From assembly GCA_021298085.1 (NCBI GenBank), contig JAJTDE010000020.1, positions 1 to 41,750 of the forward strand: a stretch of DNA of 41,750 nucleotides, in the 5' to 3' direction. The notes under the pieces were generated by a model that did not search any database, was not told the origin of the DNA, and saw only the letters and a list, made by a program, of their open reading frames with translations. Below are positions 12,201 to 36,993 of this stretch, in pieces (positions within the stretch are counted from its first letter, which is position 1; every line of letters begins with the position of its first letter). This DNA comes from Rubrivivax sp. Its GTDB lineage: Bacteria > Pseudomonadota > Gammaproteobacteria > Burkholderiales > Burkholderiaceae_C. The position numbers and the translations under genes were made by a program.

Positions 12201-13084
12201 CGTCCGGCATCGACCCGCACCCGCCCGCCCTGCCCCTGGCCGTCGACCGACACGCGGCTGCCCGCCGCCAGGGCGACCCGCTGGGTGCCGTGCAGCTCGA
12301 TGCGCCCACCTTCGCCGCTCAGCGTCTGCGCACTGAGCAGGCCCTGCTGGTTGACGATGGCGGCCTGCACGTCGATGGCCGCGGCCTCGATGCGGCCCAG
12401 GTTGAGCACCTCGCCCTGCGGCGCCTGCACGCGCAGCTGCACCTGTGGGGCCCGGGTGTCGGCCAGGTCGATGCTGCGGCCGGCGGCCAGCAGCACCTCG
12501 CCACCACGGGCCTCGATGAGGCCTTCGTTGTGCACGCCGCCCGCCGAGGCCAGCACGATGCGCCCCCCGCTGCTGGCGCGCAGCACACCCTGGTTGGTGA
12601 CCCCGGCCGGCGCAATACCCGACGCCCGCTCATCGGCCACCAGGTGGCGCAGGCCGCGGGCCCAATCCTGGTCAGACAGGTTCATCGTGGACGCCACCAG
12701 GCCGCCCACATCGACCCGGGCATCGCGCCCGAACAGCACGCCGTTCGGGTTGAGCAGCCAGACCTTGCCGTTGGAACTGAGCTGGCCAAGGATGCTGGAC
12801 GGTTCCTGGCCCAGGATGCGGTTCAGCACCGCGCTGGACGAGTGGGGCTGCTCAAACCGCACCGAGGCCCCGGTGCCGATGGAGAAGCTCTGCCAGTTCA
12901 GAACGGCATTGGCCGAGTTCGTGATGGTCAGCTGGCTGCCCTGGCGCTGCACGTGGGCCGTGCCCTGCACCACGCTGGGCCCGGTGGGCAGTGCCTGCGT
13001 CGGCACCTGTGCCAGTGCGACGATCGGCCACGGCAGTGCCAGTGGCAGGCTGAACAGCGCCCATGCGGCGTGAAGTTTGTTCAT
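6299..13084 (-). CDS. TpsA two-partner secretion exoprotein with YDG repeats and C-terminal caspase-like domain
   Basis: A 2261-residue exoprotein. A signal peptide (1-25, cleavage after VALA) leads to a filamentous-haemagglutinin-type TPS domain with WQSFSIG (64-70) and LNPNGVLFG (111-119), the hallmarks recognised by TpsB transporters. A long Gly/Ser/Thr-rich beta-helix-like region follows, broken by WLIDPNDLTI, then about seven YDG repeats of 88-89 residues and one MBG-like unit. After a Pro/Ala/Thr-rich linker, roughly the last 240 residues form a peptidase C14 (caspase) domain: KVAVLIGIDRY, the histidine in YYAGHGE (His2097) and the cysteine in SDSCFSG (Cys2147), both intact. I start at the ATG at 13084, which precedes a normal signal peptide; the open frame reaches 13180 but that part overlaps tpsB. 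The start is 13 bases after tpsB. A repeat adhesin or stalk that displays a protease-like head is the simplest reading; the target of the domain is unknown. Confidence 0.92.
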   Translation of the reverse strand: MNKLHAAWALFSLPLALPWPIVALAQVPTQALPTGPSVVQGTAHVQRQGSQLTITNSANAVLNWQSFSIGTGASVRFEQPHSSSAVLNRILGQEPSSILGQLSSNGKVWLLNPNGVLFGRDARVDVGGLVASTMNLSDQDWARGLRHLVADERASGIAPAGVTNQGVLRASSGGRIVLASAGGVHNEGLIEARGGEVLLAAGRSIDLADTRAPQVQLRVQAPQGEVLNLGRIEAAAIDVQAAIVNQQGLLSAQTLSGEGGRIELHGTQRVALAAGSRVSVDGQGQGGRVRVDAGRAGTLLASGELSADGLADTGRGGRIELLGAQVGLLDGSATRASGGTRGGTLLVGGGLQGQDREVPNAQSSFVAPQARLSADATVRGDGGRVIVWSDKATRAFGRFSVQGGPQGGDGGLVETSGGWLDARPAGVDTRAPRGRAGQWLIDPNDLTITQNGPDASISTGPVFETTADAAVISIATLASALNSGSNVSLATAAVGGLEPGDIHWRNATLSVAPAAAVSLTLLATRDIRLDGAVINASGAPLDVTLVPAGGGVGGVEIRNSSVSLALGSFSVSSGLGHAGLPVGVRVSNSSLLAPNGAINLTGTAHTGTDWASPPARLAGVWVDTGSTLSAATLNLQGTLTSGADLQRDAIRVQDSTLTATNGLTLTGNATATQTLAQTRGSNGITAVSVANSSLSLVPGSGPASGSLNLSGTLTDGPLLGAGPWDTRHAVLLDGATVTATGGAVLQAVGTAIASGGSSAPRSGGTGSLRAITVLGGAVDGSGASALNLGGGGLGLIQSRLMAPNDGTLDLGTSQGLTLDTTLTGSPGFANINTGTGPLEVSGSIAFTGSGSLYFSAGGDLHLGRIDGTQGLQLGTQGPVSALGQRVNTHVGTQLSSSATGTAILMTPGLGGSVTGANALSTPNGHWRVYTPNPEDFVSTGLRPDFRQYGVLSPGAAVMGTGSALVYAVSPELTQAPQAPSRPYDGSLLWQNPGAGAVAGLRGGDTVSLLRFTDTPDVGTGKPMALGMGVNPGVQDVNGQPVYGYVVTGPLLGSVTPRVLSLSAVTAVDKAYDGSSVATLGGGLLSGLVPGQTLGLAYADGRFGSSDAGTGKAVTGTASLTDSSTALASNYTLLSSDVSATASITPRPVLAGRVFIAPRAYDGSTTAALSGVELSGLVVGEDLGVTLASGGFSTAAAGTGKAVSGNLLLADGVQGRASNYVLSSASFSSTGDILPRAVSLLAVTGASKVYDGTREGRLTGGILAGLVPGEDLGLQFSNVSFARADAGTDIGLTGTVTLSDGTVGRAANYLLASPSAQSSASITPRPLSVSGVTVAPKVYDGSTAATASGGTLTGLVAGEDLTVALTAAAFADAHAGTGKVVTGQASLVSGSRGLASNYSLSAGWVASGDISPRPLTLGVPTGVDKVYDGSLAGQLVGGSLVGLVAGDDLTLSFSGVRFASANAATGLRVTGNATLGDGTRGRAADYQLLNPLTESRASITPRPLTLSGVSIAPKVYDGSVAASAQGGTLTGLVAGEDLSVVHAEASFDNPNVGTGKAVTGQASLASGARGLAANYSLSGAWQAVGDISARPLTLAGVTATSKVYDGTVQAQVSGGALEGLLPGQSLLVTQLRGQFADAQAGTGKAVSVTAQLADAAGGLASNYRLTAVATPVTADITPAWLSYVANPALATVGVPLPVLSGTVTGFVAGETLGTATRGTLTFSTPATPAAAPGSYAIRGGGLSAANYRFQDAPQNETALVLKAAEPQAPADTRQRLVEIPTVLFPTPVASTPSVGRVADATAVLGTVVSAASTVTTSTATSTVAVSASTASSVPTSGTPTAAPDVGPVAPPAAPPAASPEPARPQTTFAAIPREALTQAEIAGLLAARSQLKRVSLADALQRLALNPALADAPACASLAQVDSGNCLLTDRLRSQSRVQVAPLAAPPQASVPGVVPAATGAAPAVTTAAAPTAPPPASVSAAVTAGQTQPAAAAPPSLTARADTVLPNQRRVRVAVLPEIQRKVAVLIGIDRYTDARIPALQNAGNDAQAVAATLERSLGYETLVLRDASRAEILRTLNRLALQLEPQDSVIIYYAGHGERVDSTGQGYWQPADADASRPETWISNHDIGRLMRLMPARQVALVSDSCFSGSLLGEERIRGVQAGGDPRQLMRGRAAVVMTSGGNEPVFDAGRNGHSPFAWNLMQALQKVPSWSPGSNLFEAVRFAVAREMPQRPQYGSSALGGHERGNDYVFEQRQLDSER
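8100..9930 (-). repeat. Tandem YDG-domain repeats inside the TpsA exoprotein
   Basis: Seven copies of a unit whose protein signature is KVYDGS or a variant, then LxGLVxGEDL, AGTGKAVxG and ASNYxL, ending in xITPRPL. On the forward strand the YDG codon block begins near 8271, 8535, 8802, 9066, 9333, 9600 and 9867, a period of 264 or 267 bases (88 or 89 residues). An eighth, degenerate SRPYDGS copy lies near 10135. Alternate copies resemble each other more closely (APKVYDGS against VDKVYDGS/TSKVYDGT types), which suggests growth by duplication of a two-unit block. Confidence 0.88.
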
Positions 13085-13097
13085 CTCAACCCCGGTG

Positions 13098-14771
13098 TCA
13101 GAACGGGTGGGACAAGGACGCGTGCAGACGCCACTGGTCGCGCGCGGTACGCGGCCCTTCGCGCAAGGCCATCGCCGCACTCAACAGCAGCTGGGTGCCG
13201 GCATCCGCCAGCCGGGCCGACAGGCCCGCTGACGCCAGCGAACAGGCCATCGGGCCAGTGCCGCAGCCAGGCCCCTGCAGCAGCTGGACGCGCCCGATGT
13301 CGGCAAATGCCGACAGGCCCAGGCGCGTCGTGCCCTGCAACGGCCAAGGCGGGCTGGCCACCTCGAGCGAGGCCAGCCAACCGCGGTCGCCGGTGGCTTC
13401 GCGTTCCTCGTAGCCGCGCACCAGCTGCGCGCCGCCCAGGCCGAACTGTTCACCCGGCACCAGCGGGTCGCGTGTCCACTGCAGCGCCACGCGGCCCTGC
13501 AGCGACCAGTCGTCGGCCAAGGGCCAGCGCAGCTGGCCTTGCGCGCGCAGCACGGTGTACCGCCGGGGCGCGCCTGGCCGCACAGCCTCGAAGGCCTCGG
13601 CCTGGCCATGACGGCCACCGCCCAGGTTGTGGTGCAGGCCCAGCTGCAGCAGCCAGGGCGTGTCGGCGGCCGAGCGCAGCGAATACTCCACCGCCAGCGG
13701 GCGAGAAGACACACTCTGGCTGGCCGCCCCGCAGGCGCCATCGGGCAGGCCGTCAATGGCGCAATGGTTCAGGTAGTCGCGCTGGTCCAGCGCGATGGAC
13801 AGCCGCTGGTCGGCCTCGCCCCAGCGGGGCAGCAGTTGCGACCACCGCACACCCACGACCCGGCCCTTGCCGGCAAAGCGCAGGTCGCCGGCCAGCGTGG
13901 GCGTTGTGCCACCGTCGACGTCGGACGACGAGGCATAGGCCTCCAGCGCGGCCTGCTGCCGGTACAACGGCAGGCGCCAGCCCAGGCTCAGGATGCCCAC
14001 CTGTTCCGGCCGGTCGGGCGAGGTGACGCCCTGCACGCTGAGGCTGTCGTCCAGCCCCAGGAAGTTGCCGTGCCGCCACAGCAGGCCCAGGCGCCAGCGG
14101 CCTGTCTGCGCCGAGCCGGTGTTGTCCAGGTCCATGCTGAGCTGTTGAAGTGCGGTCTCGTGCACGCTGACAACGGCATCAATCTCGCCGGCGGAGGCGC
14201 CGGGCTTGAGCAGCAGTTCCAGGCGCCGCGAGGGGTTTTCATTGGCCAGCTGCAGTGCGCCATCCAGCGCGCGCAGGCGCGGCGTCTGGCCGGCCTGCAG
14301 TGGCGGCAAAGCGGCCAAGATTTGCTCGCGTGTCTGGCGTCTGGCCCCTTGAACCCGCGGCGCGGTCAGCCGGCCTTCCAGCACCTGGAGCGTCACCATG
14401 CCGTGACGGGGCGTCTGCGGTGGCACCACCACCGCCACGCCCCCAAAACCCGCCTGGGCGTAGACCCGCTGAACAGCCAGCGCGGCGGTCTGCAGTTCCG
14501 ACACGGTACGCAGGCCCACGAAGGCCTCCAGCGGAGCCTTCAATTGCGTCTCGCTGAGCAGGGTGTGCCCGGTGATGACAAAGCCGCGGACCTCCAGCGT
14601 TGGCGTCAGCGTCCGCGTCGGCGTCGGCGGTGGATCCGCGGGCAGCGCCGCAGCTGGCGCGCTCTGCGCCTGCGCCTGCACGGGTGGGGGTGCGGCAGCA
14701 CCGAGCGTGAGCGCCAGGAGGGCCAGCGCAGTGGCAGGCCCCGACCACGCGGAGAGACTCCAGGTTGCCAT
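13098..14771 (-). CDS. TpsB outer-membrane transporter (ShlB/FhaC/HecB family)
   Basis: A 557-residue Omp85-superfamily transporter that exports the TpsA protein encoded just downstream. Visible parts: a signal peptide ending near VQAQAQ; a Pro-rich linker; a first POTRA domain (LEVRGFVITGHTLLSETQL to about GMVTLQVLEGRL); a second POTRA; and a 16-strand type barrel from about residue 200 to the end. The conserved VRGYEE motif of loop L6 lies near residues 451-456, and the protein ends in phenylalanine (LSHPF), as outer-membrane barrels do. The ATG at 14771 is chosen because it directly precedes a normal signal peptide with AAGG-like purines upstream; the frame is open to 14816. It is the middle gene of an ompA - tpsB - tpsA operon, with gaps of 69 and 13 bases. 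Confidence 0.9.
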   Translation of the reverse strand: MATWSLSAWSGPATALALLALTLGAAAPPPVQAQAQSAPAAALPADPPPTPTRTLTPTLEVRGFVITGHTLLSETQLKAPLEAFVGLRTVSELQTAALAVQRVYAQAGFGGVAVVVPPQTPRHGMVTLQVLEGRLTAPRVQGARRQTREQILAALPPLQAGQTPRLRALDGALQLANENPSRRLELLLKPGASAGEIDAVVSVHETALQQLSMDLDNTGSAQTGRWRLGLLWRHGNFLGLDDSLSVQGVTSPDRPEQVGILSLGWRLPLYRQQAALEAYASSSDVDGGTTPTLAGDLRFAGKGRVVGVRWSQLLPRWGEADQRLSIALDQRDYLNHCAIDGLPDGACGAASQSVSSRPLAVEYSLRSAADTPWLLQLGLHHNLGGGRHGQAEAFEAVRPGAPRRYTVLRAQGQLRWPLADDWSLQGRVALQWTRDPLVPGEQFGLGGAQLVRGYEEREATGDRGWLASLEVASPPWPLQGTTRLGLSAFADIGRVQLLQGPGCGTGPMACSLASAGLSARLADAGTQLLLSAAMALREGPRTARDQWRLHASLSHPF

Positions 14772-18675: not shown

Positions 18676-19617
18676 TCACCCGTCGGCGTTGATGCGCGTG
18701 ATCAGCTCACGCAGCACCGATTCCGCCTTGTCGTTGTCGATCTGGCAGGTGCCAGCAGCCTGGTGCCCGCCGCCGCCATACTCCAGCATCAGCGCACCGA
18801 CGTGTGTCTTGCTGGAACGGTCCAGGATGGACTTGCCCGTGGCAAACACAGTGTTCTGCTGCTTCAGGCCCCACAGCGTGTGGATGGAGATGTTGCACTG
18901 CGGGAACAGCGCATAGATCATGAAGCGGTTGGTGGCCCAGATGGTCTCTTCGCGGCGCAGGTCCAGCACCACCAGGTTGCCGTGCACCGTGCTGCAGCGC
19001 AGGATCTGCTCACGCGCCTTCTCACTGTGTTCCTGGTACAGCGCCACCCGCTCCTTCACGTCATGCAGGCCGAGGATGTCGTGGATGCCATGGGTGCGGC
19101 AGTACTGGATCAGCTCCATCATCAGCTGGTAGTTGCTGATGCGGAAGTCGCGGAAGCGGCCCAGGCCCGTGCGCGCATCCATCAGGTAGTTCAGCAACAC
19201 CCAGCCCTTCGGCGCCAGGATGTCGTCGCGGCTGTACTGCGCGGAATCGGCCTGGTCGACCGCGGTCATCATGCTGGGGTCCACCATCGGGAAGCGAGCG
19301 GCGCCGCCGTAATGGTCGTACACCACACGCGCCGCCGACGGAGCCTTGGCATGGATGATGTGGTTAGCGGCGCGTTCGGTGTTGCGCAGCGTCTCCGACT
19401 CATGGTGGTCGAAGGCCAGGTGCACGCCGGGGACGTACGGCAGGTTGGTGCTGATGTCCCGGTGAGTGACGGCGATCTTGCCATCCTGCATGTCCTTGGG
19501 GTGCACAAACTTGATGTCGTCGATCAGTCCCAATTCGGTCAACAGCACGGCACAGACCAGGCCATCAAAGTCACTGCGGGTGATGAGGCGAAAGGTGGAG
19601 GGAACGGCGTCTCTCAT
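18676..19617 (-). CDS. DHH-family phosphoesterase
   Basis: A 313-residue cytosolic phosphoesterase. SDFDG at 15-19 and DHHES at 70-74 supply the metal-binding aspartates and histidines of the DHH domain, and a C-terminal DHHA1 domain ends in the GGGGHQAAG nucleotide-contact motif. Family members hydrolyse phosphodiester or phosphoanhydride bonds in substrates such as oligoribonucleotides, polyphosphate or 3-prime-phosphoadenosine phosphate; which one cannot be decided here. The ATG at 19617 is chosen because the conserved domain starts ten residues later; the frame is open upstream to 20115 but runs antisense-free into the neighbouring gene and lacks conservation. It appears to be a single-gene unit with a 104-base upstream gap. 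Confidence 0.9.
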   Translation of the reverse strand: MRDAVPSTFRLITRSDFDGLVCAVLLTELGLIDDIKFVHPKDMQDGKIAVTHRDISTNLPYVPGVHLAFDHHESETLRNTERAANHIIHAKAPSAARVVYDHYGGAARFPMVDPSMMTAVDQADSAQYSRDDILAPKGWVLLNYLMDARTGLGRFRDFRISNYQLMMELIQYCRTHGIHDILGLHDVKERVALYQEHSEKAREQILRCSTVHGNLVVLDLRREETIWATNRFMIYALFPQCNISIHTLWGLKQQNTVFATGKSILDRSSKTHVGALMLEYGGGGHQAAGTCQIDNDKAESVLRELITRINADG

Positions 19618-19721: not shown

Positions 19722-21479
19722 TCACCGGCCCGGCGACATCAGTGCCGCGGCCCGCGCCAGCAGGCGCTGGCGCGCCAGGGCGGTGGTGAACGTATGGTCG
19801 GCCCGCGGCACATGCGACACCGTCAGGGCGCCACGGGCCTGAAGCGCCTTCAGGGCCCGGCCGCCCTGGGCCTGCAACGCGGGCCAGCCGGGCTCGTCCT
19901 CGGAGAAGACAAAGTGCATCCGGACACCCTGTTTGCTGACGGCCAGCAAGTCGGCGTTGAGATCGTCCACCGCCCCTGAGCGCCGCGAAAGCCTCAGCAT
20001 GGCCGCAGGCATCTGCTTCAGCCTGCGCCACAGCCCTCCGGCCATTACGCGCAGGAGTTGCCGAAGATCGGATCGGCCTGTCAGCAGGCGCTTCCAGCCA
20101 CTGATGCTTCGCCACCGCGCGCGGTAATAGGCCTCCTGGACCCGCGGTGCATGCGCATCCAGGGTCAGGCCCTCATGCCAGTGGTAGACCAGCGGGTTGA
20201 CCACGATGACCTGGTCCAGCTGAAGCCCTTGAACCGCGCTGCGCAATGCATGGTAGCCACCCGCACACAGCCCCAGCATCGAGATGCGCTGTGTGGGCCA
20301 CTGTGCCCGTGCGGCCTGCACCACGGCGGCCACATCCTCCAGCGCATGCCGGCCATACACCACGTCGCTGGCTTCACCTGGCCTGGCCGGGCTCTCGCCC
20401 AGACCGGAGAGGTCCATGCGGACCACGCGGCAGCCTTGAGCGGCCAGCGCACGGGCCATCTGCACATAGAGTCGGTGGTTGCCCACGTGGTGTATCGCGC
20501 CGGTGTTGGGCAGCAGCAGCATGGCCTGTGGCTGACACGGGGGTGCTGGCTCGGAGAGCACGCCATAGAGTGGTCCACCAGGGCCGTCGACACACCAGAC
20601 CTGTTCTCGCACGCCGGGCGCCACCTCGGCCCAGCCCAGCCATTCACCCACGCCTGGCCCCCGGGGGCGCTCTGGTGCAGCAGGCTGCTCACGGGCCGGC
20701 AGCGTCGCCGCCCAGGCCTGCAGGGCTTCAGCCAGTTCATCCAGCGCAGCCTGTGGCACACGCTGGCGGTGGGGCTCCAGCAGCATGGCGGACAAGCCCT
20801 GGCAGCGGCGCGCGGCAACCTGGACGCCCTGTGCCTGGAGCTGCTCGGCCCATCGGGCAGCGGCCGGCAGGTCGTCGCGGTCCAGCAGCCACACGGGCTT
20901 GTCCACGGGCCAGGCCAGGTCGGGCACCGACAAGGAACCCAGTGCGCGCAGCGTGGCGGCCGAGTGGAAGACGCCCGCCACCTCCAGCGCGCCATCGCCG
21001 TGCTCCTCGCGCAGGGCTGCGGTGGCGGCCAGGGCCCGCCATTCGCGCAGCATCGTGCGCCCAGAGAGCACCGGCGCCAGTCCGACCAGGGCCAGTACCT
21101 GAGGGTGCCGGGCCGCCACGGGCGCTGCGAGCAGCGTCGCGCCACGCACGGCCATCAGCACCACACGGGTCACCCCGGTGGTGCGGCACAGCTGCTCGAC
21201 CGCCTGTTCCAGCGATGCCTGCCAGGCCGGGACGGCGCCATGTTCAGGGTCTTCGGGCCCATCGGCGGCATTGCCCGTGCCAGCCGCATCCAGCCGCAGG
21301 CAGGGTAGGCCGCACGCTGCCAGGGCCATGGCTGCCGCCTGCATGCTGCGGTGGGTGTACAGCGCCTCCTGCCCCAGCGGCGGGCACAAGACCACGCCCG
21401 TCGACGGTGAACCGGCCACCGGGTGCAGCCAGCCAAACAACGGGCGCTCGGGGTTACCAAAGAAGCCCGAGCGTGTCAT
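19722..21479 (-). CDS. Tandem alpha/beta-hydrolase with a Cys nucleophile in the second domain
   Basis: A 585-residue protein made of two alpha/beta-hydrolase folds. In the first (about 1-265) the oxyanion-loop region LCPPLGQEAL is present, but the nucleophile elbow reads MAVRG, with Val111 where Ser is expected, so it is probably inactive. In the second (about 295-585) the elbow is GLCAGG with Cys405 as nucleophile, backed by likely Asp528 (SEDEPGW) and His562 (RADHTF). Cys-type hydrolase folds near carrier proteins include the aminoacyl shuttles CmaE and SyrC, so transfer or release of an aminoacyl group from the nearby carrier protein is an attractive inference. The start (ATG at 21479) overlaps the stop of the GH2 gene. 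Relatives occur beside exosortase loci, but no exosortase gene is seen here. Confidence 0.85.
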   Translation of the reverse strand: MTRSGFFGNPERPLFGWLHPVAGSPSTGVVLCPPLGQEALYTHRSMQAAAMALAACGLPCLRLDAAGTGNAADGPEDPEHGAVPAWQASLEQAVEQLCRTTGVTRVVLMAVRGATLLAAPVAARHPQVLALVGLAPVLSGRTMLREWRALAATAALREEHGDGALEVAGVFHSAATLRALGSLSVPDLAWPVDKPVWLLDRDDLPAAARWAEQLQAQGVQVAARRCQGLSAMLLEPHRQRVPQAALDELAEALQAWAATLPAREQPAAPERPRGPGVGEWLGWAEVAPGVREQVWCVDGPGGPLYGVLSEPAPPCQPQAMLLLPNTGAIHHVGNHRLYVQMARALAAQGCRVVRMDLSGLGESPARPGEASDVVYGRHALEDVAAVVQAARAQWPTQRISMLGLCAGGYHALRSAVQGLQLDQVIVVNPLVYHWHEGLTLDAHAPRVQEAYYRARWRSISGWKRLLTGRSDLRQLLRVMAGGLWRRLKQMPAAMLRLSRRSGAVDDLNADLLAVSKQGVRMHFVFSEDEPGWPALQAQGGRALKALQARGALTVSHVPRADHTFTTALARQRLLARAAALMSPGR

Positions 21480-24010
21480 GGGTCGCCGTCCCCCGGGGGT
21501 ACGACGGTCACTGGCCAGCGGTGGTTGGCGGCATGAACATGGCCACGCCGGACGCGGGGCGGCTGACCATGGGCCCGCAGGCGCACACGTCGGCACTCCC
21601 CTGGCGCCATGTCAAACCAGTTGTCTTCGGGCCGATGGCCAGCCACCTCGATGTGCACCCCCAGGGCCAGGCGCTGGGCTTTCAACTCCAGCACCAGGCC
21701 TGCGTCGTCAGCCCGCTGCGCCTGTACCTGCAGCGAGGCTGTGTCATCGCTCCCGGAGGGCCAACCGCCAGGAACATGGTGCGCCCGCGCCAGCACGCGC
21801 CCATCGGGCGTCTGCAGCACGGCTTGCACCAGGTCGGCGGCCGGTGGGCCGAACCGGTAGGCCCAGGCCAGGTCGGTGAACTGCGGGAACACCGCTGCCA
21901 GTTCCACGCGCTGCGTGTGGCGCGGCGCCAGCGTGCAGGCCTGCGAGGCCATCTCCAGGCAGCGCGCGCCCTGGTAAAGGCCCACCGACCACCGGGCCTC
22001 CACGGCCTCGGCCCTGTCGTTGACAAGGTGCAGGGCCAGCCCGTTCAAGCCCTCGTCGGTCAGCAGCACGGTGGTCGGCTGCAGGACGCGGCGCAAGGCA
22101 TACCAGGCGGACTTGGGGCCGCCCTGATCGTCCAGGAAGCCCCAGCCCGCGCCGGGCTGCAGATCACGCAGGAACCAGACCAGCGCACCCTGGCACGCGG
22201 AGCCCGCCGCACGCCACTGGCTGAACGTGGCCTCGACCACACGCGCCACCACCAGACGGCTGAGCATCAGGTAACGCTCGTGGTCATGGCGGCGCAGGGC
22301 CGTTGGGTCCACGCCCAGGCAGGTGCCCAGGTAGTGGTCGCGCACGTCTTCGAAGTCCCAGCCGGCACCCAGGTCGCGCGGGGCACCCTGCTTCCAGGCC
22401 GCATGGTGCACCCTCAGGGCGTGGCCTCCACCGGGCAACCGAGACAAGGCCTCCTGCTCGGGCACCTGCGAAAAGGCCAGGCATTCGGTGGCAAAACGCA
22501 CACCGCTGTCGCGGGCGTCCACCAGTGGCCGCTGGTAGGCACCCACGCCATAGTAGGAACAGGTACCGCCCGCGGGCGAAAACGGCCACGCGCCGCCATG
22601 CGCGCTGGAGGGCCAGTAAGGGGTGTCGGGCAGCCACCCTGCACACCATGTCGGCAGGTGGGCCTCAAACAGCGCAGAGGACCACCGCTCCCGCGGCATG
22701 CCCAGCATGGCGGCCTGTTGCTCCACCTCGCTGTTGCCGCACAGCATCACCAGCGAGGGGCTGCCCTGCCAGCGGGCCAGCTGCTGCCGCACCTCGAGTG
22801 CCAGCGTCGCGATGAAGGCTGCGTCGTCGACGGGGTAGTCCATGTTGGCCAGCATGAAGTCCTGCCAGACCATCACGCCCGCCCTGTCGCAGGCCTCGTG
22901 AAAGGCTGGCGGCTCGTAGACCATGGGGCCCGCCACCCGCAGCATGTTCATGCCGGCGTCCTGCACCTGCGCCACCGCCTGGGTGTAGGCGGCATCGCTG
23001 GCATGGGGCTGCAGCGTGTCCAGGGGTGTCCAGCAGGCGCCCCGCGCAAACACGGGCACGCCGTTCACGCGCAAGCCCGTACCTTGGCTGTTGTGCTGCC
23101 ACTGCACCGTCCTGAAGCCGACGGGGCTCAAGGGCCACTCGCGCGCGGCCTCACCCTCACCGCAGGTCAGGCTGGCCTCGTAGAGGGCGGGGTCACCGTG
23201 GGTATGAGGCCACCATCGCGCGACGTTGTCGATGCGCAGCAGCGCCTTGGCGCAGCCATCGGCGTCTCGTTCCAAGGGCGCCCGGTAGCGGGCAGCGCCG
23301 CGCTGCAGCGCCAGCTCCATGGGCGTTTCCGGCGCATCGGGCAATTCAATCTGCAGCCAGCCGGTGTCGCCGTTCAGCATCGGCCGCAGCAGCAGACGCT
23401 CGCTCAATACCGCTTCCGAAGGGCCCAGCCACACCGGGCGCCAGGGCCCCACCACCGGCACCGAGGGAGACCACCCCGGCGTGCGACCCAGCAGCGTGGT
23501 GCGCCACCAGCGCAGCTGCTGCTGCCGCAGCATCGGCACCCGCCAGGCAGGCCGCGGGCGGCGCTGCGCCAGGCGGGGCGCCAGCGGCCAGGCGGTCACC
23601 CGCAATTCGTTGTCATGGTCCTGCAGCCGCTGGCCAACCGGCACGCGGTGCGCGACAAACATGTTGTCGCTGTCCAGCAGCGGCTCACCGTTGAGCGTCA
23701 CCGTGCAGCAGGTGGCCAGGCCGTCCAGCGCCAGGATGGCGTCATCGCCCAGGCCAGCCGGCTTGTCGAAGCGCAGACGCCAGCACCAGGTCTCGTCGTC
23801 CAGGTCGGCCATGGGGGCGCCCTGGCTGGCCAGCCATGCACCAGCGGTGAGCAGCCCGGGTGTGGCCACCCAAGGCAGGACGGTATCGGCAAGGCCGCCA
23901 GCGCCCGGGTTCGCGTCATCCGGCCCTGACACACCCTCGCTGGCGCCGGGCGGCACACGGGCCATCTGCCACCCGTCACGCAAGGGCCAGCGCGTGCCGT
24001 GAAGCGGCAT
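21476..24010 (-). CDS. Glycoside hydrolase family 2, beta-mannosidase-like
   Basis: An 844-residue enzyme of the GH2 beta-mannosidase type. The N-terminal sugar-binding domain (about 65-195) has the WCWRLRF and LNGEPLLDSDNMF signatures, followed by an immunoglobulin-like domain and the TIM barrel (about 310-600). Barrel motifs: RGACWTPLDT, the mannosidase-typical VWQDFMLANMDYP (381-393), the acid/base Glu428 in CGNSE and the nucleophile Glu509 in FATEC, all present. It removes beta-linked sugar, probably mannose, from an unknown substrate. There is no signal peptide, so it should work in the cytosol. Its start shares one base with the carrier protein stop (TGATG) and its stop overlaps the hydrolase start, which ties a glycosidase to carrier-protein chemistry. 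Confidence 0.87.
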   Translation of the reverse strand: MPLHGTRWPLRDGWQMARVPPGASEGVSGPDDANPGAGGLADTVLPWVATPGLLTAGAWLASQGAPMADLDDETWCWRLRFDKPAGLGDDAILALDGLATCCTVTLNGEPLLDSDNMFVAHRVPVGQRLQDHDNELRVTAWPLAPRLAQRRPRPAWRVPMLRQQQLRWWRTTLLGRTPGWSPSVPVVGPWRPVWLGPSEAVLSERLLLRPMLNGDTGWLQIELPDAPETPMELALQRGAARYRAPLERDADGCAKALLRIDNVARWWPHTHGDPALYEASLTCGEGEAAREWPLSPVGFRTVQWQHNSQGTGLRVNGVPVFARGACWTPLDTLQPHASDAAYTQAVAQVQDAGMNMLRVAGPMVYEPPAFHEACDRAGVMVWQDFMLANMDYPVDDAAFIATLALEVRQQLARWQGSPSLVMLCGNSEVEQQAAMLGMPRERWSSALFEAHLPTWCAGWLPDTPYWPSSAHGGAWPFSPAGGTCSYYGVGAYQRPLVDARDSGVRFATECLAFSQVPEQEALSRLPGGGHALRVHHAAWKQGAPRDLGAGWDFEDVRDHYLGTCLGVDPTALRRHDHERYLMLSRLVVARVVEATFSQWRAAGSACQGALVWFLRDLQPGAGWGFLDDQGGPKSAWYALRRVLQPTTVLLTDEGLNGLALHLVNDRAEAVEARWSVGLYQGARCLEMASQACTLAPRHTQRVELAAVFPQFTDLAWAYRFGPPAADLVQAVLQTPDGRVLARAHHVPGGWPSGSDDTASLQVQAQRADDAGLVLELKAQRLALGVHIEVAGHRPEDNWFDMAPGECRRVRLRAHGQPPRVRRGHVHAANHRWPVTVVPPGDGDP

Positions 24011-24258
24011 CAGCCCACCAGTTCGGCCACCGCAGCGCGGATCGCCGCGATGCTCTGAAAGGACGATCGTGTCAGCAGCCGATCCGGAAACTCCACGTCG
24101 AACTCGGCTTCCAGGGCCAGCATCACGTTGACACTGGCATGCGAGCTGAGACCCGCCTGGTAGAGGTCGTCGGCCGCGCCCAAGGTGGCGGCGTCACCGC
24201 TGATGCGGCCATGCTGATTGAGGATGGCACAGATGCGGGCGTCGAGGTCGGTGTGCAT
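24010..24258 (-). CDS. Acyl/aminoacyl carrier protein
   Basis: An 82-residue acidic four-helix carrier protein. The phosphopantetheine attachment motif is DLYQAGLSSHASV instead of the DSL of fatty-acid carrier proteins. By analogy with the GLTS motif of carrier proteins served by amino acid:[carrier protein] ligases, Ser39 is the likely modified residue. The helix after it (NVMLALEAEFDVEFPDRLL) is typical of the family. The gene sits between a dedicated phosphopantetheinyl transferase and a glycosidase whose start overlaps its stop, and faces the ligase operon, so it most likely accepts an activated amino acid rather than a fatty acid. Confidence 0.92.
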   Translation of the reverse strand: MHTDLDARICAILNQHGRISGDAATLGAADDLYQAGLSSHASVNVMLALEAEFDVEFPDRLLTRSSFQSIAAIRAAVAELVG

Positions 24259-24342
24259 GGGTGGAGTGCGCTCGTGAGGGTGAGTGGGTCAAGAGGTGAA
24301 GAGGTCGATGGGTTCGATGACCTGTTGGCTGCCACCCACCCG

Positions 24343-24801
24343 TCAGGCATCCATCTGCACAGGGCCGAGGGGCACGATCACCACCACGGCACAGGCATGG
24401 GTGGGGTCATGGCTGAGGCTCACCGCGACATCGGCGGGCCCCAGCACATCCAGGGCCTGACGCGCCAGCCCCTGAAGCGCCAGCCGCGGCTCGCCGCCAG
24501 CCCCGTGCTCAATGCCGATGTCCTTGAATGACACCCCTGCCTCACCGAGGTTCAAGGCCTTGATCACGGCCTCCTTGGCGGCAAACCGGGCCGCCAGGCG
24601 CTCTGCGCTGCAGGCCGGTGCGGACAGGGAGTAGGCCACTTCGTCGTCGGTGAACAGCTTGCTCAGGTAGCGCTGGCCGAAGTGCCGCCATGCGGCGTCA
24701 ACCTCATGGACGCCCACCGTATCCAGGCCAATGCGCACCCCTGCCCGATGGCGAAGGGCAGTCGTCAGCTGGGAGGCTGCGGGCAGGCACAGAGGAGGCA
24801 T
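24343..24801 (-). CDS. AcpS-type 4-prime-phosphopantetheinyl transferase
   Basis: A 152-residue holo-carrier-protein synthase. The N-terminal IGLDTVGVHEV carries the first magnesium ligand (Asp27), and RFAAKEAVIKAL carries the second (Glu77) with Lys76; GVSFKDIGIEH and VSLSHDPTHACAVVV complete the fold. It transfers phosphopantetheine from coenzyme A to the serine of the carrier protein encoded 84 bases downstream. The ATG at 24801 is preferred because the domain begins about 20 residues later; the frame is open to 25026 but that part would cover the divergent promoter. A carrier-protein locus with its own AcpS points to a specialised pathway. Confidence 0.88.
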   Translation of the reverse strand: MPPLCLPAASQLTTALRHRAGVRIGLDTVGVHEVDAAWRHFGQRYLSKLFTDDEVAYSLSAPACSAERLAARFAAKEAVIKALNLGEAGVSFKDIGIEHGAGGEPRLALQGLARQALDVLGPADVAVSLSHDPTHACAVVVIVPLGPVQMDA

Positions 24802-24933
24802 CGGTAATTCAGGTCGGACAAGGCCATCGGGCGCTTCCGCAGAAGGCCACACGTTCCCTTCATGTCGGAGAGCTGCAAAGCCCCCTGTAGCAAGCCTGGA
24901 AAAGTTCCGGCGCTGCCGGTGCAATGTCACGAG

Positions 24934-24948
24934 TTTGCCGAGCAAACG
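24934..24948. promoter_or_regulatory. Perfect palindrome between the two carrier-protein operons
   Basis: GTTTGC (24934-24939), CGA, GCAAAC (24943-24948): a perfect 6+6 inverted repeat with a 3-base centre, in the 233-base region between the divergent phosphopantetheinyl transferase and dehydrogenase genes. This region is poorer in G+C than the genes around it. The spacing suits a dimeric repressor, so it is a candidate operator that could control both operons. No regulator gene is seen near it. Confidence 0.4.
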
Positions 24949-25034
24949 CTTCACAAAAGGCGCCAAGGTACGAAACGATCGAGATGTCTCCTTGTGGCGC
25001 AACCCATGTGCCCTTGTGCCAGTCATCCGCGCTC

Positions 25035-26246
25035 ATGAACATGGACATCTCCGACGCAGTCAGTACGGAGCGGCTTCGGGGCTTCTCCGACACGCTCAAC
25101 ACCGCACGGCAGATCGCCCGGGACATTGCCGCCGCCCACGCCCGCGCTGTGGACACGGAGGCGCGGTTTCCCCGTGAAAGCATCACGGCGCTGCAGACGG
25201 CCGGCCTGCTGGCCGCGGCCGTGCCACGCAGCCACGGTGGCCCCGGCCACTCGCTGGCCGAACAGGCGCAGTTGTGCGCCGCGCTGGCCCAGGGCTGCGG
25301 TTCCACCGCCATGGTGTTTGCGATGCACCTCAGCCAGCTGGCCAGCGTGGCGCGCCACCACGGCGGCTCGGCCTGCTTCGAGACGTTCCTGCGCACGCAG
25401 GTGGCTGAGCAACGCCTGCTGGCGTCGATGACCTCCGAGGTAGGCACCTGGGGCGACACACGCTCCAGCATCTGCGCGCTGCAGCCCCAGGCCGACGGCC
25501 AGCGCCTGCAGCTGCACAAGGAAGCCACCACCGGTTCGTACTGCGCCAGCGCCGACGGCATCCTGGTGACCTGCCGCCGCGACGCCGACGCACCCGCCAG
25601 CGACCAGCGCCTGCTGCTGGTGCTGAAGAAGGACTTCACGCTGACGCAGACCACCACCTGGGACACCCTGGGCATGCGGGGCACCGTGAGCCCCGGCTAC
25701 CGCCTGCAGGCCGAGGCCGACGCCAGCCAGCTGCTGCCCGCCCCCTACGCCGAGATCGGCGCGATGACCATGGTGCCCTGGACGCATGTGCTGTGGGCGG
25801 CACTGTGGTGGGGCATCGCCGCGGATGCCCACGCCAAGGCCTCGGCCAGCGTGCGCACTCAGGCGCGCCAGACACCGGGCCAGACACCGCCCACGGCACT
25901 GCGACTGGCCGAGCTGTCGGCCCAGCTGCAGACGGCGCGCATGCACTGGGAAGGCGTGGCCCACGCGTTCGACCGGCTGGACCCCGACAACCCGGACGAC
26001 CGCCAGGCACTGACCGGCATGGGCTGGCGCCTGAAGCTGAACCACCTGAAGACCCAGATGTCCGAGGCGGCGCCTCGGCTGGTGCACCTGGCGCTGCAGA
26101 TCATTGGCATGCCCGCCTACAAGAACGATGGGCCGATGAGCCTGGGCCGCCACTACCGCGATGCGCTGTCAGGTGCACTGATGATCAACAACGACCGCAT
26201 CCATGCCGGCAGTGCCGCGCTGCTGACGGTCTACAAGGACGCGTGA
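25035..26246 (+). CDS. Acyl-CoA dehydrogenase-like flavoprotein, probably acting on a carrier-bound substrate
   Basis: About 403 residues with the acyl-CoA dehydrogenase fold. The N-terminal helical domain includes FPRESITALQTAGLLAAAVPRSHGG; then come LAQGCGSTAMVFAMHLSQLA, the middle beta domain with LASMTSEVGTWGDTRS and TWDTLGMRGTVS (typical FAD contacts), and the C-terminal helical domain ending in LGRHYRDALSGALMINNDRIH. Members of this family oxidise the alpha-beta bond of acyl thioesters, and some (PltE, RedW, AnaB) work on prolyl carrier proteins. Because the next gene, two bases downstream, is an amino acid:[carrier protein] ligase, an aminoacyl-thioester substrate is plausible. The ATG at 25035 (or 25041) has no clear ribosome binding site. 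Confidence 0.85.
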   Translation: MNMDISDAVSTERLRGFSDTLNTARQIARDIAAAHARAVDTEARFPRESITALQTAGLLAAAVPRSHGGPGHSLAEQAQLCAALAQGCGSTAMVFAMHLSQLASVARHHGGSACFETFLRTQVAEQRLLASMTSEVGTWGDTRSSICALQPQADGQRLQLHKEATTGSYCASADGILVTCRRDADAPASDQRLLLVLKKDFTLTQTTTWDTLGMRGTVSPGYRLQAEADASQLLPAPYAEIGAMTMVPWTHVLWAALWWGIAADAHAKASASVRTQARQTPGQTPPTALRLAELSAQLQTARMHWEGVAHAFDRLDPDNPDDRQALTGMGWRLKLNHLKTQMSEAAPRLVHLALQIIGMPAYKNDGPMSLGRHYRDALSGALMINNDRIHAGSAALLTVYKDA

Positions 26247-26247
26247 G

Positions 26248-27174
26248 ATGGGCGTGCGATTCGAACTCCAGAGCTGCCACGAAGGCCTCGTGGAACACGG
26301 CCTGATCATCCCCACCGGCGAGCCGGGCGTCTTTGGCCGCAGTGCCGTGTTCGAAGACGTGCTGGAGCGATTCAACGACCTGATCACCCAGGCCGGCACC
26401 GAGGACCGCGCCGAGACCTGCGTCTTTCCGCCGGTACTCAACCGCCGTGTGCTGGAGAAGGTGAACTACCTCGAGTCATTCCCGCACCTGTGCGGCTCGG
26501 TGCACAGCTTCAAGGGCAACGCGCTGCAGGCGCTGGCGCTGGCCGAGCGGGCCAGGGCCGGCGAGGACTGGGGTGACATGCTCGGCTCCACGGGCGTGGC
26601 GCTGACCCCGGCGGTGTGCTACCCCGTCTACCCCGGGCTGGCCGGCACGCTGCCAGCGCAGGGCCGCATCATCTCCATCCTGGGCTGGGCCTACCGCCAT
26701 GAGCCGTCCGACGAGCCCACACGGATGCAATCCTTCCGCGTGCGGGAATACATCCACGCTGGCACAGCCGATCAGGTCAGCCGTTGGCGTGACCAGTGGC
26801 TGGCGCGCGGCATTGCCCTGCTGCGCGCGCTGCAGCTGCCGGTGATCGAGCAGGTGGCCGCCGACCCCTTCTTCGGACGCGCCGGCCGCATGATGGCGAA
26901 CCACCAGGTGTCGCAGCAGCTGAAATTCGAGGTGGTGGTGCCGGTGATTTCGATGGAGGAGCCGACGGCCATCTGCTCCTTCAACTACCACCAGGACAAG
27001 TTTGGCCAGGTGTTTGGCATTCGCACCGCCGACGGCGAGGTGGCGCACACCGCCTGCCTCGGCTTTGGCATGGAACGGGTGGTGATGGCGCTGTTTGTGC
27101 ACCACGGCTGGAAACTGGCCCACTGGCCCGAGGCGGTTCGTCAGCAGCTGTGGCCGAAGGGCGCGCCGGCATGA
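26248..27174 (+). CDS. Amino acid:[carrier protein] ligase (class II aminoacyl-tRNA-synthetase homologue)
   Basis: A 308-residue class II synthetase catalytic core without any tRNA-binding domain. Class II motif 2 is seen as SFRVREYIH (162-170) and motif 3 as CLGFGMERVVMAL (270-282). Cys124 (PAVCYP), Glu167 and Cys270 are spaced like the zinc ligands of the Bradyrhizobium enzyme and of methanogen-type SerRS. The family activates glycine, alanine or another small amino acid with ATP and loads it onto the phosphopantetheine of a carrier protein rather than tRNA. Its carrier protein is encoded at 24010-24258. The ATG is one base after the dehydrogenase stop, and its own stop overlaps the DUF1839 start, so three genes are co-translated. 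The amino acid used cannot be read directly. Confidence 0.93.
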   Translation: MGVRFELQSCHEGLVEHGLIIPTGEPGVFGRSAVFEDVLERFNDLITQAGTEDRAETCVFPPVLNRRVLEKVNYLESFPHLCGSVHSFKGNALQALALAERARAGEDWGDMLGSTGVALTPAVCYPVYPGLAGTLPAQGRIISILGWAYRHEPSDEPTRMQSFRVREYIHAGTADQVSRWRDQWLARGIALLRALQLPVIEQVAADPFFGRAGRMMANHQVSQQLKFEVVVPVISMEEPTAICSFNYHQDKFGQVFGIRTADGEVAHTACLGFGMERVVMALFVHHGWKLAHWPEAVRQQLWPKGAPA

Positions 27175-28148
27175 GCGGCCGTGCAGCCTGGGCAGAGCCC
27201 ACGCACTACCGCCCTCACTTGCTGCACGGCGAATCCCGCATCTGGCTGGAGAAGAACTGCTATGTGGACGTGTGGATCGCGCTGCTGCATACGCTGGAGC
27301 TGGAGCCCCGGGCCATGCTCGGTTGCGCCGCCGCCCTGGACTTCCTGGGCGACCAGTGGACCTTCCTGAAACCCGACCACCACGACCTGCGCCACCTCTA
27401 CGGCGTGCAGGTGCAGGAGCTGACACTGTGGCGACCGCTGGCCGAGCACGTGCGCGAGCACCTGAACGCCGGCCGCCTGATCAGCGTCGAGGCCGACGCC
27501 TGGTGGCTGCCCGACACCGCCGCCACCGACTACCGACAGCAGCACACCAAGACCACCATCGTCATTGTGGCTGACGATCCGGCGCAGCAGCAGCTGACCT
27601 ACTTCCACAACGCGGGTCTGTACACCCTGCACGGCGAGGATTACCGGCAGACCCTGGCCAACGGCGGCCTGCCGATGCCGCTGTACGCCGAGTGGATCGA
27701 TGCCAGCCGCCGGCACGCACGGCCAGGCAGCGAGCTGCGGCACCTCGCCCGCGAGCGCCTGGAGCAGCACCTGGCCTGGCGCCCAACTGACAACCCGATG
27801 AGACGCTTCGCCGCGCGCTTCAACGAGGACCTGGCCGCCCTGCAGCGCGAGCCCGACCGCCCCGCAGCGCTGGCGCGTTACCACGCCTGGGCCTTTGCCG
27901 GAACCCGGCAGCTCGGCAGCGCCATGGAGCTGCTGGCCCTGCATCTGCAGTGGCTGGACGACCCGGCCTGCGCCGGCGCTGCAGACCACGCGCTGTCGCT
28001 CGCCCAGGCCTGCAAGAGCCTGATCCTGAAGGGCGCGCGCGCGGCAGCCACTGGCCGGCCCTGGCAGGGCCAGGAACTGCTGGATGGCATGACCGCCGAC
28101 TGGGCGTCGCTGATGGCCGCCTGCGGCCACGGCCGCGCCGGCGACTGA
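27171..28148 (+). CDS. DUF1839 family protein, partner of the amino acid:[carrier protein] ligase
   Basis: A 325-residue protein without signal or membrane span. The N-terminal half (NCYVDVWIALLHTLELEPRAMLGCAAALDFLGDQWTFLKP, here cited as a region at about residues 25-65) contains the most conserved-looking part: a Cys-Tyr-Val-Asp segment, then FEADAWWLPDT-like VEADAWWLPDTAATDY near 104-119, and KTTIVI. The C-terminal half is helical and Arg/Ala-rich. DUF1839 genes often lie next to amino acid:[carrier protein] ligase genes; its function is not established. The Cys-containing N-terminal motif and the conserved Asp make an enzyme (peptidase-like or transfer) possible, but this is speculation. 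ATG 27171 overlaps the ligase stop (ATGA). Confidence 0.82.
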   Translation: MSGRAAWAEPTHYRPHLLHGESRIWLEKNCYVDVWIALLHTLELEPRAMLGCAAALDFLGDQWTFLKPDHHDLRHLYGVQVQELTLWRPLAEHVREHLNAGRLISVEADAWWLPDTAATDYRQQHTKTTIVIVADDPAQQQLTYFHNAGLYTLHGEDYRQTLANGGLPMPLYAEWIDASRRHARPGSELRHLARERLEQHLAWRPTDNPMRRFAARFNEDLAALQREPDRPAALARYHAWAFAGTRQLGSAMELLALHLQWLDDPACAGAADHALSLAQACKSLILKGARAAATGRPWQGQELLDGMTADWASLMAACGHGRAGD

Positions 28149-28187: not shown

Positions 28188-28745
28188 ATGCCGACCGTGC
28201 TGCCGACCGTGTCCGAAGACACTACCGCCAACCTGGCGCCCAGCCCCCCGGCTGCGGCTGCGGCCGCGCCTGAGCGCATGGCCCCCGCAGTCGCCGACAC
28301 CGCGCCTGGCGACGTCACGCCGGCCTCACCGTCCACACCGAGCCCCTTCCAGAGCGGGTCCATCCGAGCCGCCAGTTTCCAACCCGCGCCGCTGCCCGCC
28401 GAGTGGGTGCACAGCGGAAACCCTGCCGCGCGTTCGCTGCCGTTGACACGCTCAGCCGATGGTCACCTGTCCAGCGGCCTGTGGGATTGCCAGGCTGGCA
28501 GCTTCACCTACATCTTCCCCTGCGATGAGATCGTGCACATCCTGGAAGGCGACGTGATCGTTGATGCCCAGGGCGGCCAACGCCACCTGCGGGCAGGCGA
28601 CGTGGCATTTTTCCCGCAGGGTCTGGAAACCCGATGGACCGTGCGGCACTGTGTGAAGAAGCTGGCCATCTTTCACACCGTCACGCGCCCGCTGCACGTA
28701 CGCATCGCCGGACGCCTGCTGCGGTGGCTGGGTATCCGGCGGTAA
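28188..28745 (+). CDS. Cupin-domain protein
   Basis: A 185-residue protein. The first 70 residues are Ala/Pro/Thr-rich and look disordered. A single cupin barrel follows (about 85-165), with the typical pair of motifs: YIFPCDEIVHILEGDVIVDAQGG, and HLRAGDVAFFPQGLETRWTV. It resembles the cupin_3 (DUF861, ureidoglycine-aminohydrolase-like) group, in which metal ligands are not always kept; here Glu and His of DEIVHILEG could serve. The function is unknown. It lies 39 bases after the DUF1839 gene on the same strand and could be the last member of that operon. A GAGG about nine bases before the ATG at 28188 supports the start. Confidence 0.8.
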   Translation: MPTVLPTVSEDTTANLAPSPPAAAAAAPERMAPAVADTAPGDVTPASPSTPSPFQSGSIRAASFQPAPLPAEWVHSGNPAARSLPLTRSADGHLSSGLWDCQAGSFTYIFPCDEIVHILEGDVIVDAQGGQRHLRAGDVAFFPQGLETRWTVRHCVKKLAIFHTVTRPLHVRIAGRLLRWLGIRR

Positions 28746-36681: not shown

Positions 36682-36993
36682 GGGATGACGGGTGGGGGCC
36701 CTCGGCGCTTCAGGGGCGCGCGGCTGGAGCGCCTGCCAAGGGGGTGTCTGAAGACATGTCGAGGCTTCGTGCTGGCACGGGCCGAAGGGTAACGCTCCAC
36801 ACACCTGAGCGCCACCCGCCCGAAGCGCCGGCCACCCACTCTTGCGCCTGCGTTGCTCCACCCTCTGCGTCAGGGACAAGACCAGGAAAACACGGCTTCC
36901 TGGGTGCCTGGGCGTCTGTACGATCGCGCTCCGCGGCCGAGTGCGTGAATCACCGACACCGGCCGCTGCCTTTCACGATGGAGGAGACACACC
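36682..36993. other. Divergent intergenic region between eutBC and the sugar ABC operon
   Basis: A 312-base stretch without a convincing gene. It should contain both divergent promoters. I see no clean -35/-10 pair, riboswitch or long inverted repeat; in particular, no cobalamin riboswitch is apparent ahead of eutB. The only clear element is GGAGGAG at 36980-36986, seven bases before the substrate-binding-protein ATG. Confidence 0.5.

Follow-up and report, generated by a model that had tools for sequence, protein, structure and literature searches.

A recurrent seven-gene set around a tRNA-synthetase-like amino acid:[carrier protein] ligase in Rubrivivax sp., possibly acting in aminoacyl modification of a glycan precursor

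The stretch of DNA analysed here, called the window, comprises 41,750 nucleotides of Rubrivivax sp. (assembly GCA_021298085.1, contig JAJTDE010000020.1, positions 1 to 41,750, forward strand). At positions 19722-28148 it contains seven genes arranged around an amino acid:[carrier protein] ligase with a class II core like that of seryl-tRNA synthetase (SerRS). These genes very likely form one conserved unit that serves a single pathway. The set represents a real, widespread and unsolved pathway, and the member in the window has a divergent layout and its own AcpS gene. We consider it about an even chance that the pathway modifies a glycan precursor in the cytoplasm by means of a carrier-bound aminoacyl group, and that the precursor is exported afterwards. 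An earlier note on this DNA had assigned the seven genes to families from the sequence; all were found in place and matched their family models, as follows.

19722..21479, minus strand: two-domain alpha/beta hydrolase (hydr2_PEP-like and hydr1_PEP-like), from PF12146, TIGR matches and alignment
21476..24010, minus strand: glycoside hydrolase family 2 (GH2) enzyme, GH2_14-like, with a PF22666 match, Ser427-Glu428 and, by alignment, the nucleophile Glu509
24010..24258, minus strand: aminoacyl carrier protein (NF005480), with the attachment site Ser39 in GLSSH
24343..25026, minus strand: AcpS-type phosphopantetheinyl transferase (TIGR00516), conserved domain at approximately residues 98-217 of the longest frame
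24802..25034, no strand: divergent intergenic region, if AcpS starts at 24801; promoters presumed
25035..26246, plus strand: acyl-CoA-dehydrogenase-like (ACAD) flavoprotein, with ACAD domains and Ile384 and Thr250 at the base positions
26248..27174, plus strand: amino acid:[carrier protein] ligase, class II SerRS-like core (NF005479), Zn ligands Cys124, Glu167 and Cys270
27171..28148, plus strand: DUF1839 protein (PF08893), papain-like by publication, with Cys30, Thr128/Thr129 and His146

Read leftward, the minus strand carries AcpS, the carrier protein, GH2 and the hydrolase, and the plus strand carries the flavoprotein, the ligase and DUF1839. As read from the sequence, the carrier stop codon and the GH2 start overlap by one base, overlaps of four bases are seen for GH2/hydrolase and ligase/DUF1839, and one base separates the flavoprotein gene from the ligase gene. 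The overlapping stop and start codons described in the earlier note are therefore present, but a start at 25035 is more likely for the flavoprotein than one at 24924. The start of AcpS is uncertain and may lie anywhere within 24801-25026. A promoter region shared by the two operons, also claimed there, is suggested by the divergent layout alone; a scan of 24250-25100 for sigma-70 sites gave none. The genome of the window has a single match to the ligase.

Co-inheritance of the genes was examined in 398 genomes of the phylum (383 for the GH2 search). The ligase was matched in 44 genomes, 16 of them at E <= 3.5e-89, with the next best match at 1.8e-75. DUF1839 occurs in 16 of the 398 genomes, and these are the same 16 that have the close ligase. 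When relatedness is ignored, the hypergeometric probability of finding all 16 of them among the 44 genomes with the ligase is 3e-17. With the window GH2 as query, 27 of the 383 genomes were matched at E <= 1e-20; 16 matches reached at least 510 bits, and the next had 202 bits. Again these are the same 16 genomes, and GH2 adjoins DUF1839 in all of them. The neighbourhood check proposed in the earlier note, whether the GH2 and hydrolase genes are peculiar to this strain, thus ran against that outcome: this GH2 subfamily was found solely together with DUF1839 and the close ligase.

The same picture was obtained from 53 related loci (55 minus two duplicates), some of which are cut by contig ends; proteins below 60% of the window length were excluded. 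The carrier protein is present in 50 of these loci, the flavoprotein in 49, DUF1839 in 44, GH2 in 40, the hydrolase in 33 and AcpS in 26. In L016 the row for the ligase extends into a different frame, and the DUF1839 and GH2 genes of L087 look broken; both loci were counted where the length exceeded 60%. No additional gene cluster, among frames of at least 110 codons, occurs in more than 7 of 54 loci. Pairwise identities of the ligase are correlated with those of its partners (r 0.44 to 0.78, lowest for AcpS). The ligase was found in 2 of 37 genomes of the genus and in 21 of 299 genomes of the family sample, which indicates that the set comes and goes as a block. It should be mentioned that the third match (of 61) in the genus-level search is a distant homologue in another family.

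The assembly labels of the loci include Betaproteobacteria, Rhodanobacter, Pseudomonadales, Gemmatimonas, Myxococcales and Deltaproteobacteria, and several are metagenome bins. The Myxococcales locus (L005) shows no GH2 or hydrolase in the available stretch. Named plasmids extend the set to Alphaproteobacteria. Among 14 annotated plasmid regions with DUF1839, the carrier, flavoprotein and ligase trio adjoins in 13 and GH2 is annotated in 11; a fifteenth region, from Burkholderia stagnalis, carries no annotation. Sets with both GH2 and the hydrolase occur in Azospirillum sp. B510, Mycetohabitans rhizoxinica, Rhizobium rhizoryzae, Phyllobacterium sp. 628 and Rhizobium sp. NLR16a. DUF1839 is the sole annotated member in Rhizobium sp. 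NZLR1, and no GH2 is annotated in R. binae and one R. leguminosarum; since the gene tables of PLSDB are incomplete, absence there is weak evidence. The earlier proposal that the whole set is one pathway is supported by its repeated occurrence as a unit in three proteobacterial classes (Alpha, Beta and Gamma), as well as in assemblies that carry the labels Gemmatimonas and Deltaproteobacteria.

Two plasmid copies have neighbours of separate interest. In Rhizobium gallicum R602 (L132 1479-17413), the cassette directly follows nifHDKENX-fdxB and an annotated exopolysaccharide production repressor, with an ACC deaminase gene downstream; the set of this strain has no hydrolase gene adjoining it. 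This may be a symbiosis gene set; the other Rhizobium regions that were opened have no nif genes. In Rhizobium sp. NLR16a (L134 7531-10357), efp, epmA and a lysine-2,3-aminomutase-like gene (EF-P modification) are directly upstream of the cassette.

From these genes we infer the ligation substrate, the steps after ligation, their order and the product as follows. AcpS would arm the carrier protein with phosphopantetheine. At the expense of ATP and independently of tRNA, the ligase would then charge the carrier with an amino acid that is probably small. The flavoprotein may oxidise the carrier-bound amino acid, with hydroxylation likelier than desaturation. DUF1839 might take the aminoacyl group onto Cys30 and pass it to an amine or hydroxyl group of a sugar. 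GH2 would act on a beta-glycoside of a galactose-type sugar that is substituted at C2 or otherwise enlarged, either in trimming or editing or in freeing the acceptor. The Cys-nucleophile hydrolase would work beside the flippase, on the same carrier- or sugar-bound acyl group. An aminoacyl-modified glycan precursor is the likely product; it would then be exported and may join a surface polysaccharide.

A glycan as the target is moderately supported, and the hydrolase is the first line of evidence. It matches the alpha/beta hydrolase model PF12146 with 64.1 bits (cut-off 27). The models of the exosortase-A-associated hydrolases hydr1 and hydr2 (TIGR03100 and TIGR03101) match its two domains; the scores for hydr1_PEP and hydr2_PEP (104.4 of 168.45 and 68.7 of 202.75 bits) are both under the curated cut-offs. 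The C-terminal domain contains the GLCAG motif, and Cys405, Asp561 and His562 are kept in 45 of 45 sequences (Cys405 in 34 of 34 in another alignment), in agreement with the Cys nucleophile named in the earlier note. The nucleophile position of the N-terminal domain is occupied by Arg in 32, Gly in 12 and a gap in one of 45 sequences, and by neither Ser nor Cys. In polysaccharide clusters, homologues have a carrier protein and an adenylate-forming ligase as neighbours. The cassette hydrolase differs from the exosortase-A-associated hydrolases in that both domains are in one protein and the partner ligase is tRNA-synthetase-like.

In Rhizobium sp. NLR16a (L134 17847-21158), the hydrolase makes up the C-terminal half of a protein of 1103 residues. 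The N-terminal half is a Polysacc_synt_3 (Wzx-type) flippase with approximately 12 membrane segments, and a GT4 gene separates GH2 from the fusion gene. A second fusion, in genome G461 (L103 15373-18696), is 91% identical to that of NLR16a, and the two were therefore counted as one event. A search with the hydrolase matched 58 records; among the 25 listed, we chose six that lie away from the cassette, and a seventh that was opened, from Phyllobacterium, is a cassette copy. Five of the six sit in polysaccharide clusters with a flippase and glycosyltransferases, of two kinds by gene order, and four of these five clusters have an annotated carrier protein and AMP-forming ligase. One of the six records (Shinella sp. 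WSC3-e) is approximately 21 kb from the cassette of that plasmid. The sugar-linked intermediate or product suggested in the earlier note is strengthened by the hydrolase-flippase fusion and by these polysaccharide contexts.

Four of the clusters deserve mention in their own right. In L139 and L141-L143, polysaccharide clusters hold a carrier protein and an AMP-forming ligase beside the same Cys hydrolase; L139 adds a pyridoxal phosphate enzyme, and L141-L143 add asnB and nadE. They may represent a parallel carrier-dependent modification of glycans.

Polysaccharide genes are also found near some ligase loci. In Aquabacterium fontiphilum, a glycosyltransferase frame starts at the end of the hydrolase, and after it come genes resembling Wza, Wzc, a kinase, Wzy and Wzx; A. 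lacunae has this run, from the glycosyltransferase to the Wzx-like gene, after its ligase. In 7 of 45 genomes the ligase has a polysaccharide export gene no more than 21 kb away, against an expectation of 1.2. For membrane acyltransferases (PF01757) at a distance of up to 17.5 kb, the count is at least 7 of 40 genomes, with 1.5 expected. The P values of both comparisons are rough, related genomes being counted separately and distances read by hand. As for the location of the chemistry, an N-terminal hydrophobic stretch above the cut-off was seen in none of the aligned proteins; ten have an internal stretch, and seven of these are hydrolases. Proteins of the other loci were trimmed near the window start, so that upstream signals could escape, and the test is a weak one outside the window. 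The chemistry is probably cytoplasmic and carried out by soluble enzymes.

The putative transfer step is assigned to DUF1839, which matches PF08893 with 319.8 bits (cut-off 22.5). Cys30 is kept in 43 of 45 sequences and His146 in all 45, and Thr128/Thr129 are mostly Thr or Ser. By sequence alone these residues fit the C(T/S)H triad, in swapped order, that was published for this papain-like family (PMC10318531). On the basis of context, a paper of 2023 proposed a role for DUF1839 in the processing of glycans at the cell wall (PMC10318531). The papain-like BtrH is a carrier protein:aminoglycoside acyltransferase (PMC10318531, PMC8430323), and the butirosin side-chain route likewise passes a carrier-bound amino acid by a papain-like transferase to an aminoglycoside. 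DUF1839 is, however, a separate family with swapped triad order, and BtrH_N gave no match even at E 10 with the window protein and three relatives. A sequence search for a solved relative of DUF1839 found nothing better than E 0.38. Apart from the cassette, second DUF1839 copies occur in G733 (G733:C2:2215276-2216190) and G663 (G663:C159:127-1047) with no second ligase match; each is within approximately 15 kb of a Poly_export gene.

The N-terminal domain of the GH2 enzyme matches PF22666 with 64.8 bits (cut-off 27). Loss of the acid/base residue was suspected when Glu428 fell under the 93% conservation list, but this was rejected: the column holds Glu in 38 and Asp in 3 of 41 sequences. The preceding Ser427 is kept in 39 of 41, and the nucleophile Glu509 in 40 of 41, with one gap. 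At the position facing C2, in a column matched by eye, the window has Ala360, and the 41 sequences show Gly in 19, Ser in 8, Ala in 7 and others in 7; the next residue, Gly361, is invariant. The Trp of mannosidases is present in none of the window enzyme and its 40 relatives.

A clustering in 2007 placed GH2 proteins of Agrobacterium, Burkholderia and Ralstonia in a subfamily with a different catalytic doublet and possibly a new substrate (PMC1976428). A paper of 2025 names GH2_14, which has a Ser-Glu motif, Gly in place of a conserved His and a larger pocket (PMC12243196). The cassette GH2 would belong to GH2_14, since the two share the Ser-Glu doublet, the absence of Trp, His or Glu at the C2-facing position and the absence of an N-terminal signal; the window enzyme has Ala where GH2_14 is described with Gly. 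The two tested GH2_14 members lack a signal peptide and hydrolyse p-nitrophenyl-beta-galactoside slowly (kcat 2.8 and 1.2 per min), and the ligase cassette is not mentioned in the covered text of that paper (PMC12243196). Two other assignments were considered. A beta-mannosidase was rejected: the nearest solved structures are mannosidases, but the Asn-Glu doublet and the Trp are replaced, and two GH2_14 enzymes are inactive on mannobiose and mannotriose (PMC12243196). A CsxA-type glucosaminidase was rejected tentatively. In that enzyme too the acid/base is preceded by Ser (PMC6566704), but its subfamily has Glu in the place facing C2 that is Gly in GH2_14 (PMC12243196), and the cassette enzymes have no Glu in the presumed equivalent column.

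Several observations weigh against a glycan precursor as the target. The two Aquabacterium loci, which show the clearest exopolysaccharide neighbourhoods, lack DUF1839 and GH2, and L010 also lacks the flavoprotein and the hydrolase. No export gene is found within 21 kb in 38 of 45 genomes, that of the window included, and the three Poly_export genes of the window genome are on other contigs. Among 121 of 210 selected flank proteins there are three Poly_export, three Wzz and three Acyl_transf_3; the remaining flank families, among the 25 of 251 listed, are mostly unrelated, and the polysaccharide enrichment is weak. The conserved set has no glycosyltransferase. GH2 is unannotated in 3 of 14 plasmid copies, and 20 of 53 loci yielded no hydrolase. 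One of the six hydrolase records is away from polysaccharide genes and has no carrier protein and AMP-forming ligase. Finally, weak activity on lacto-N-tetraose and beta-1,6-galactobiose was reported for one GH2_14 member, and the covered text names no natural substrate (PMC12243196).

An alternative product is a small soluble aminoacyl glycoside, a signal or an antibiotic-like compound. In a butirosin-like manner, the carrier-bound amino acid would undergo flavin oxidation and be passed to an amino sugar by the papain-like enzyme; GH2 and the hydrolase would deprotect or release the product, and no polysaccharide would take part. The set is self-contained in many unrelated contexts, its proteins show no N-terminal hydrophobic segments, BtrH offers a precedent for the transfer, and the R. 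gallicum set directly follows nifHDKENX. On the other hand, the conserved set includes neither an exporter nor a glycosyltransferase, and the hydrolase-flippase fusion and the polysaccharide clusters of the hydrolase indicate a glycan. A soluble glycoside is considered rather unlikely. Modification of a glycan precursor can also be extended, more tentatively and with somewhat less than even confidence, to a general route. It would consist of SerRS-like activation on a carrier, oxidation by a dehydrogenase turned monooxygenase, and cytoplasmic transfer to a lipid-linked sugar beside the flippase, with two orphan families, DUF1839 and GH2_14, and the Cys hydrolase as its parts. The same hydrolase in a parallel route with an AMP-forming ligase would then mark carrier-dependent decoration of Wzx/Wzy glycans.

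The flavoprotein matches the N- and C-terminal ACAD domain models above their cut-offs. To locate its base positions, a profile of 15 family members was aligned to true short-chain dehydrogenases, and the alignment ends were read by eye. We take the catalytic Glu of short-chain dehydrogenases to align with Ile384 of the window protein, and the base position of the isovaleryl type with Thr250. Column 384 holds Ile in 35 and Val in 15 of 50 sequences, and column 250 holds Ser in 38, Ala in 6, Thr in 5 and Cys in one; neither contains Glu. His251, which adjoins the latter, is kept in 50 of 50. The absence of Glu at both base positions in all 50 sequences argues for monooxygenation. The relatives of solved structure include DnmZ and a nitrososynthase, both presumably N-oxidising, along with dehydrogenases, the dehydrogenases coming first when the profile is used. 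A flavin oxidation presumably belongs to the butirosin side-chain route as well.

A true dehydrogenase, which would leave a dehydroamino acid bound to the carrier in the manner of prolyl-carrier dehydrogenases, is otherwise compatible with modification of a glycan precursor. The flavoprotein aligns with acyl-CoA dehydrogenases and weakly with a prolyl-ACP dehydrogenase. In addition, an acidic residue at position 387 (Asp or Glu in 46 of 50) could act as a shifted base, and no flavin reductase, which a two-component monooxygenase would require, recurs with the set; both points tell against hydroxylation. Residue 387 is not invariant, however, the canonical Glu column is Ile or Val throughout, and the isovaleryl-type column is Ser, Thr, Ala or Cys. 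Desaturation thus appears doubtful, and hydroxylation of the carrier-bound amino acid is the more likely reaction as judged from these columns.

The ligase, of 308 residues, matches NF005479 with 406.4 bits (cut-off 357) over model positions 20-316 of 318, and the tRNA-binding domain is absent. The Zn ligands Cys124, Glu167 and Cys270, presumably equivalent to Cys131, Glu176 and Cys279 of Bll0957, are kept in 54, 54 and 53 of 54 sequences. The carrier protein matches NF005480 with 96.7 bits (cut-off 72); Ser39 of the GLSSH attachment motif, already pointed out in the earlier note, is kept in all 51 aligned carriers. AcpS matches TIGR00516 with 67.6 bits (cut-off 59.8). A dedicated AcpS had been claimed, and the gene is indeed at the locus, but it is the rarest member of the set (26 of 53 loci), and the genome has two other PF01648 genes.

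The ligase and carrier pairs of Bradyrhizobium (Bll0957) and Agrobacterium (Atu2571, with which we take Atu2573 to belong) are of the same NF005479 and NF005480 families, with the same Zn ligands and an adjoining ACAD-like gene. The structurally solved and biochemically studied Bll0957 shares 96% identity with its nearest match, the ligase of locus L109, and 46% with that of the window, the latter over 283 residues. Neither DUF1839 nor GH2 nor the hydrolase was detected at L109 or at the other loci whose ligases group with Bll0957, whereas the window falls within the group that has the complete set. Bll0957 is thus outside the group of ligases linked to DUF1839, and its specificity is not simply transferable to the window ligase. 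For the window enzyme, a small amino acid as the substrate is an extrapolation. In a Bradyrhizobium phaR mutant at low oxygen, Bll0957 and the acyl-CoA dehydrogenase Bll0958 each show a fold change of 3.0 (PMC10888616), consistent with joint regulation. As a side observation, distant ligase homologues of 27-32% identity occur in other families of the phylum, in G441, G453, G463, G493, G525 and their relatives and in L052 and L053. They are mostly in frames of approximately 400-480 codons, longer than the window ligase, and in genomes outside the 16 with DUF1839.

The first proposal for the ligase family, reported in PMC2922099, was that the aminoacyl carrier feeds a nonribosomal peptide assembly line. 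The chemistry of ligase and carrier would fit, but it is a glycosidase and a papain-like enzyme that are conserved with them. No other gene is found in more than 7 of 54 loci, so that no assembly-line partner is conserved nearby (condensation domains and distant nonribosomal peptide synthetase genes were not searched for), and this proposal is regarded as very improbable. A scavenging set that degrades aminoacylated sugars would account for the hydrolytic families of GH2 and the alpha/beta hydrolase, but it is hardly credible, as an ATP-using ligase with a dedicated carrier and transferase is biosynthetic and no transporter gene occurs in more than 7 of 54 loci.

The basic idea of modifying a glycan in this way is not new. 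A note in proof of 2010 predicted from gene neighbourhoods that an amino acid is joined to the amino group of a cell-surface sugar (PMC2922099). The neighbourhood is the same, with a SerRS-like ligase, carrier, redox enzyme, conserved uncharacterised protein, glycosidase and liposaccharide genes, and so is the predicted outcome. That paper names Atu2574 as the amide ligase, with no family name; it would correspond to DUF1839. The covered text of the note in proof, its supplement aside, does not contain the two-domain Cys hydrolase, the GH2 subfamily, the residue losses or the co-occurrence counts. The co-occurrence test, the residue evidence, the link to GH2_14, and the hydrolase with its fusion go beyond the cited text covered. 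The earlier note knew of no described product for this gene set. We found no published report of one in an open-licence library, but the pathway had already been predicted in outline (PMC2922099). The cassette, which is present in many soil bacteria, such as Azospirillum and Rhizobium, brings together three open questions, so that the substrates involved in one can be used to test the others. If the target is a glycan, the set would provide tRNA-independent decoration of surface sugars with modified amino acids.

Other genes of the window were noted as well. Just downstream of DUF1839, at 28188-28745 (plus strand), is a EutQ-like cupin gene, which was matched once (L112) among the 55 loci. The large subunit of ethanolamine ammonia lyase, EutB, is encoded at 35302-36879 (minus strand), and a glutamine-synthetase-like gene at 615-1958 (plus strand). 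At 18676-19617 (minus strand), a frame with an Asp-His-His motif resembles DHH phosphoesterases by eye; it has no Pfam match at E 0.001. A frame of 2293 residues at 6299-13180 (minus strand) carries a two-partner secretion (TPS) domain together with seven YDG repeats and an MBG domain and has a caspase (Peptidase_C14) domain at its C-terminus; it reads as an adhesin-like secreted protein with a terminal caspase fold. Near it, at 4463-6262 (plus strand), a Ser/Thr protein kinase domain is followed by DUF4384.

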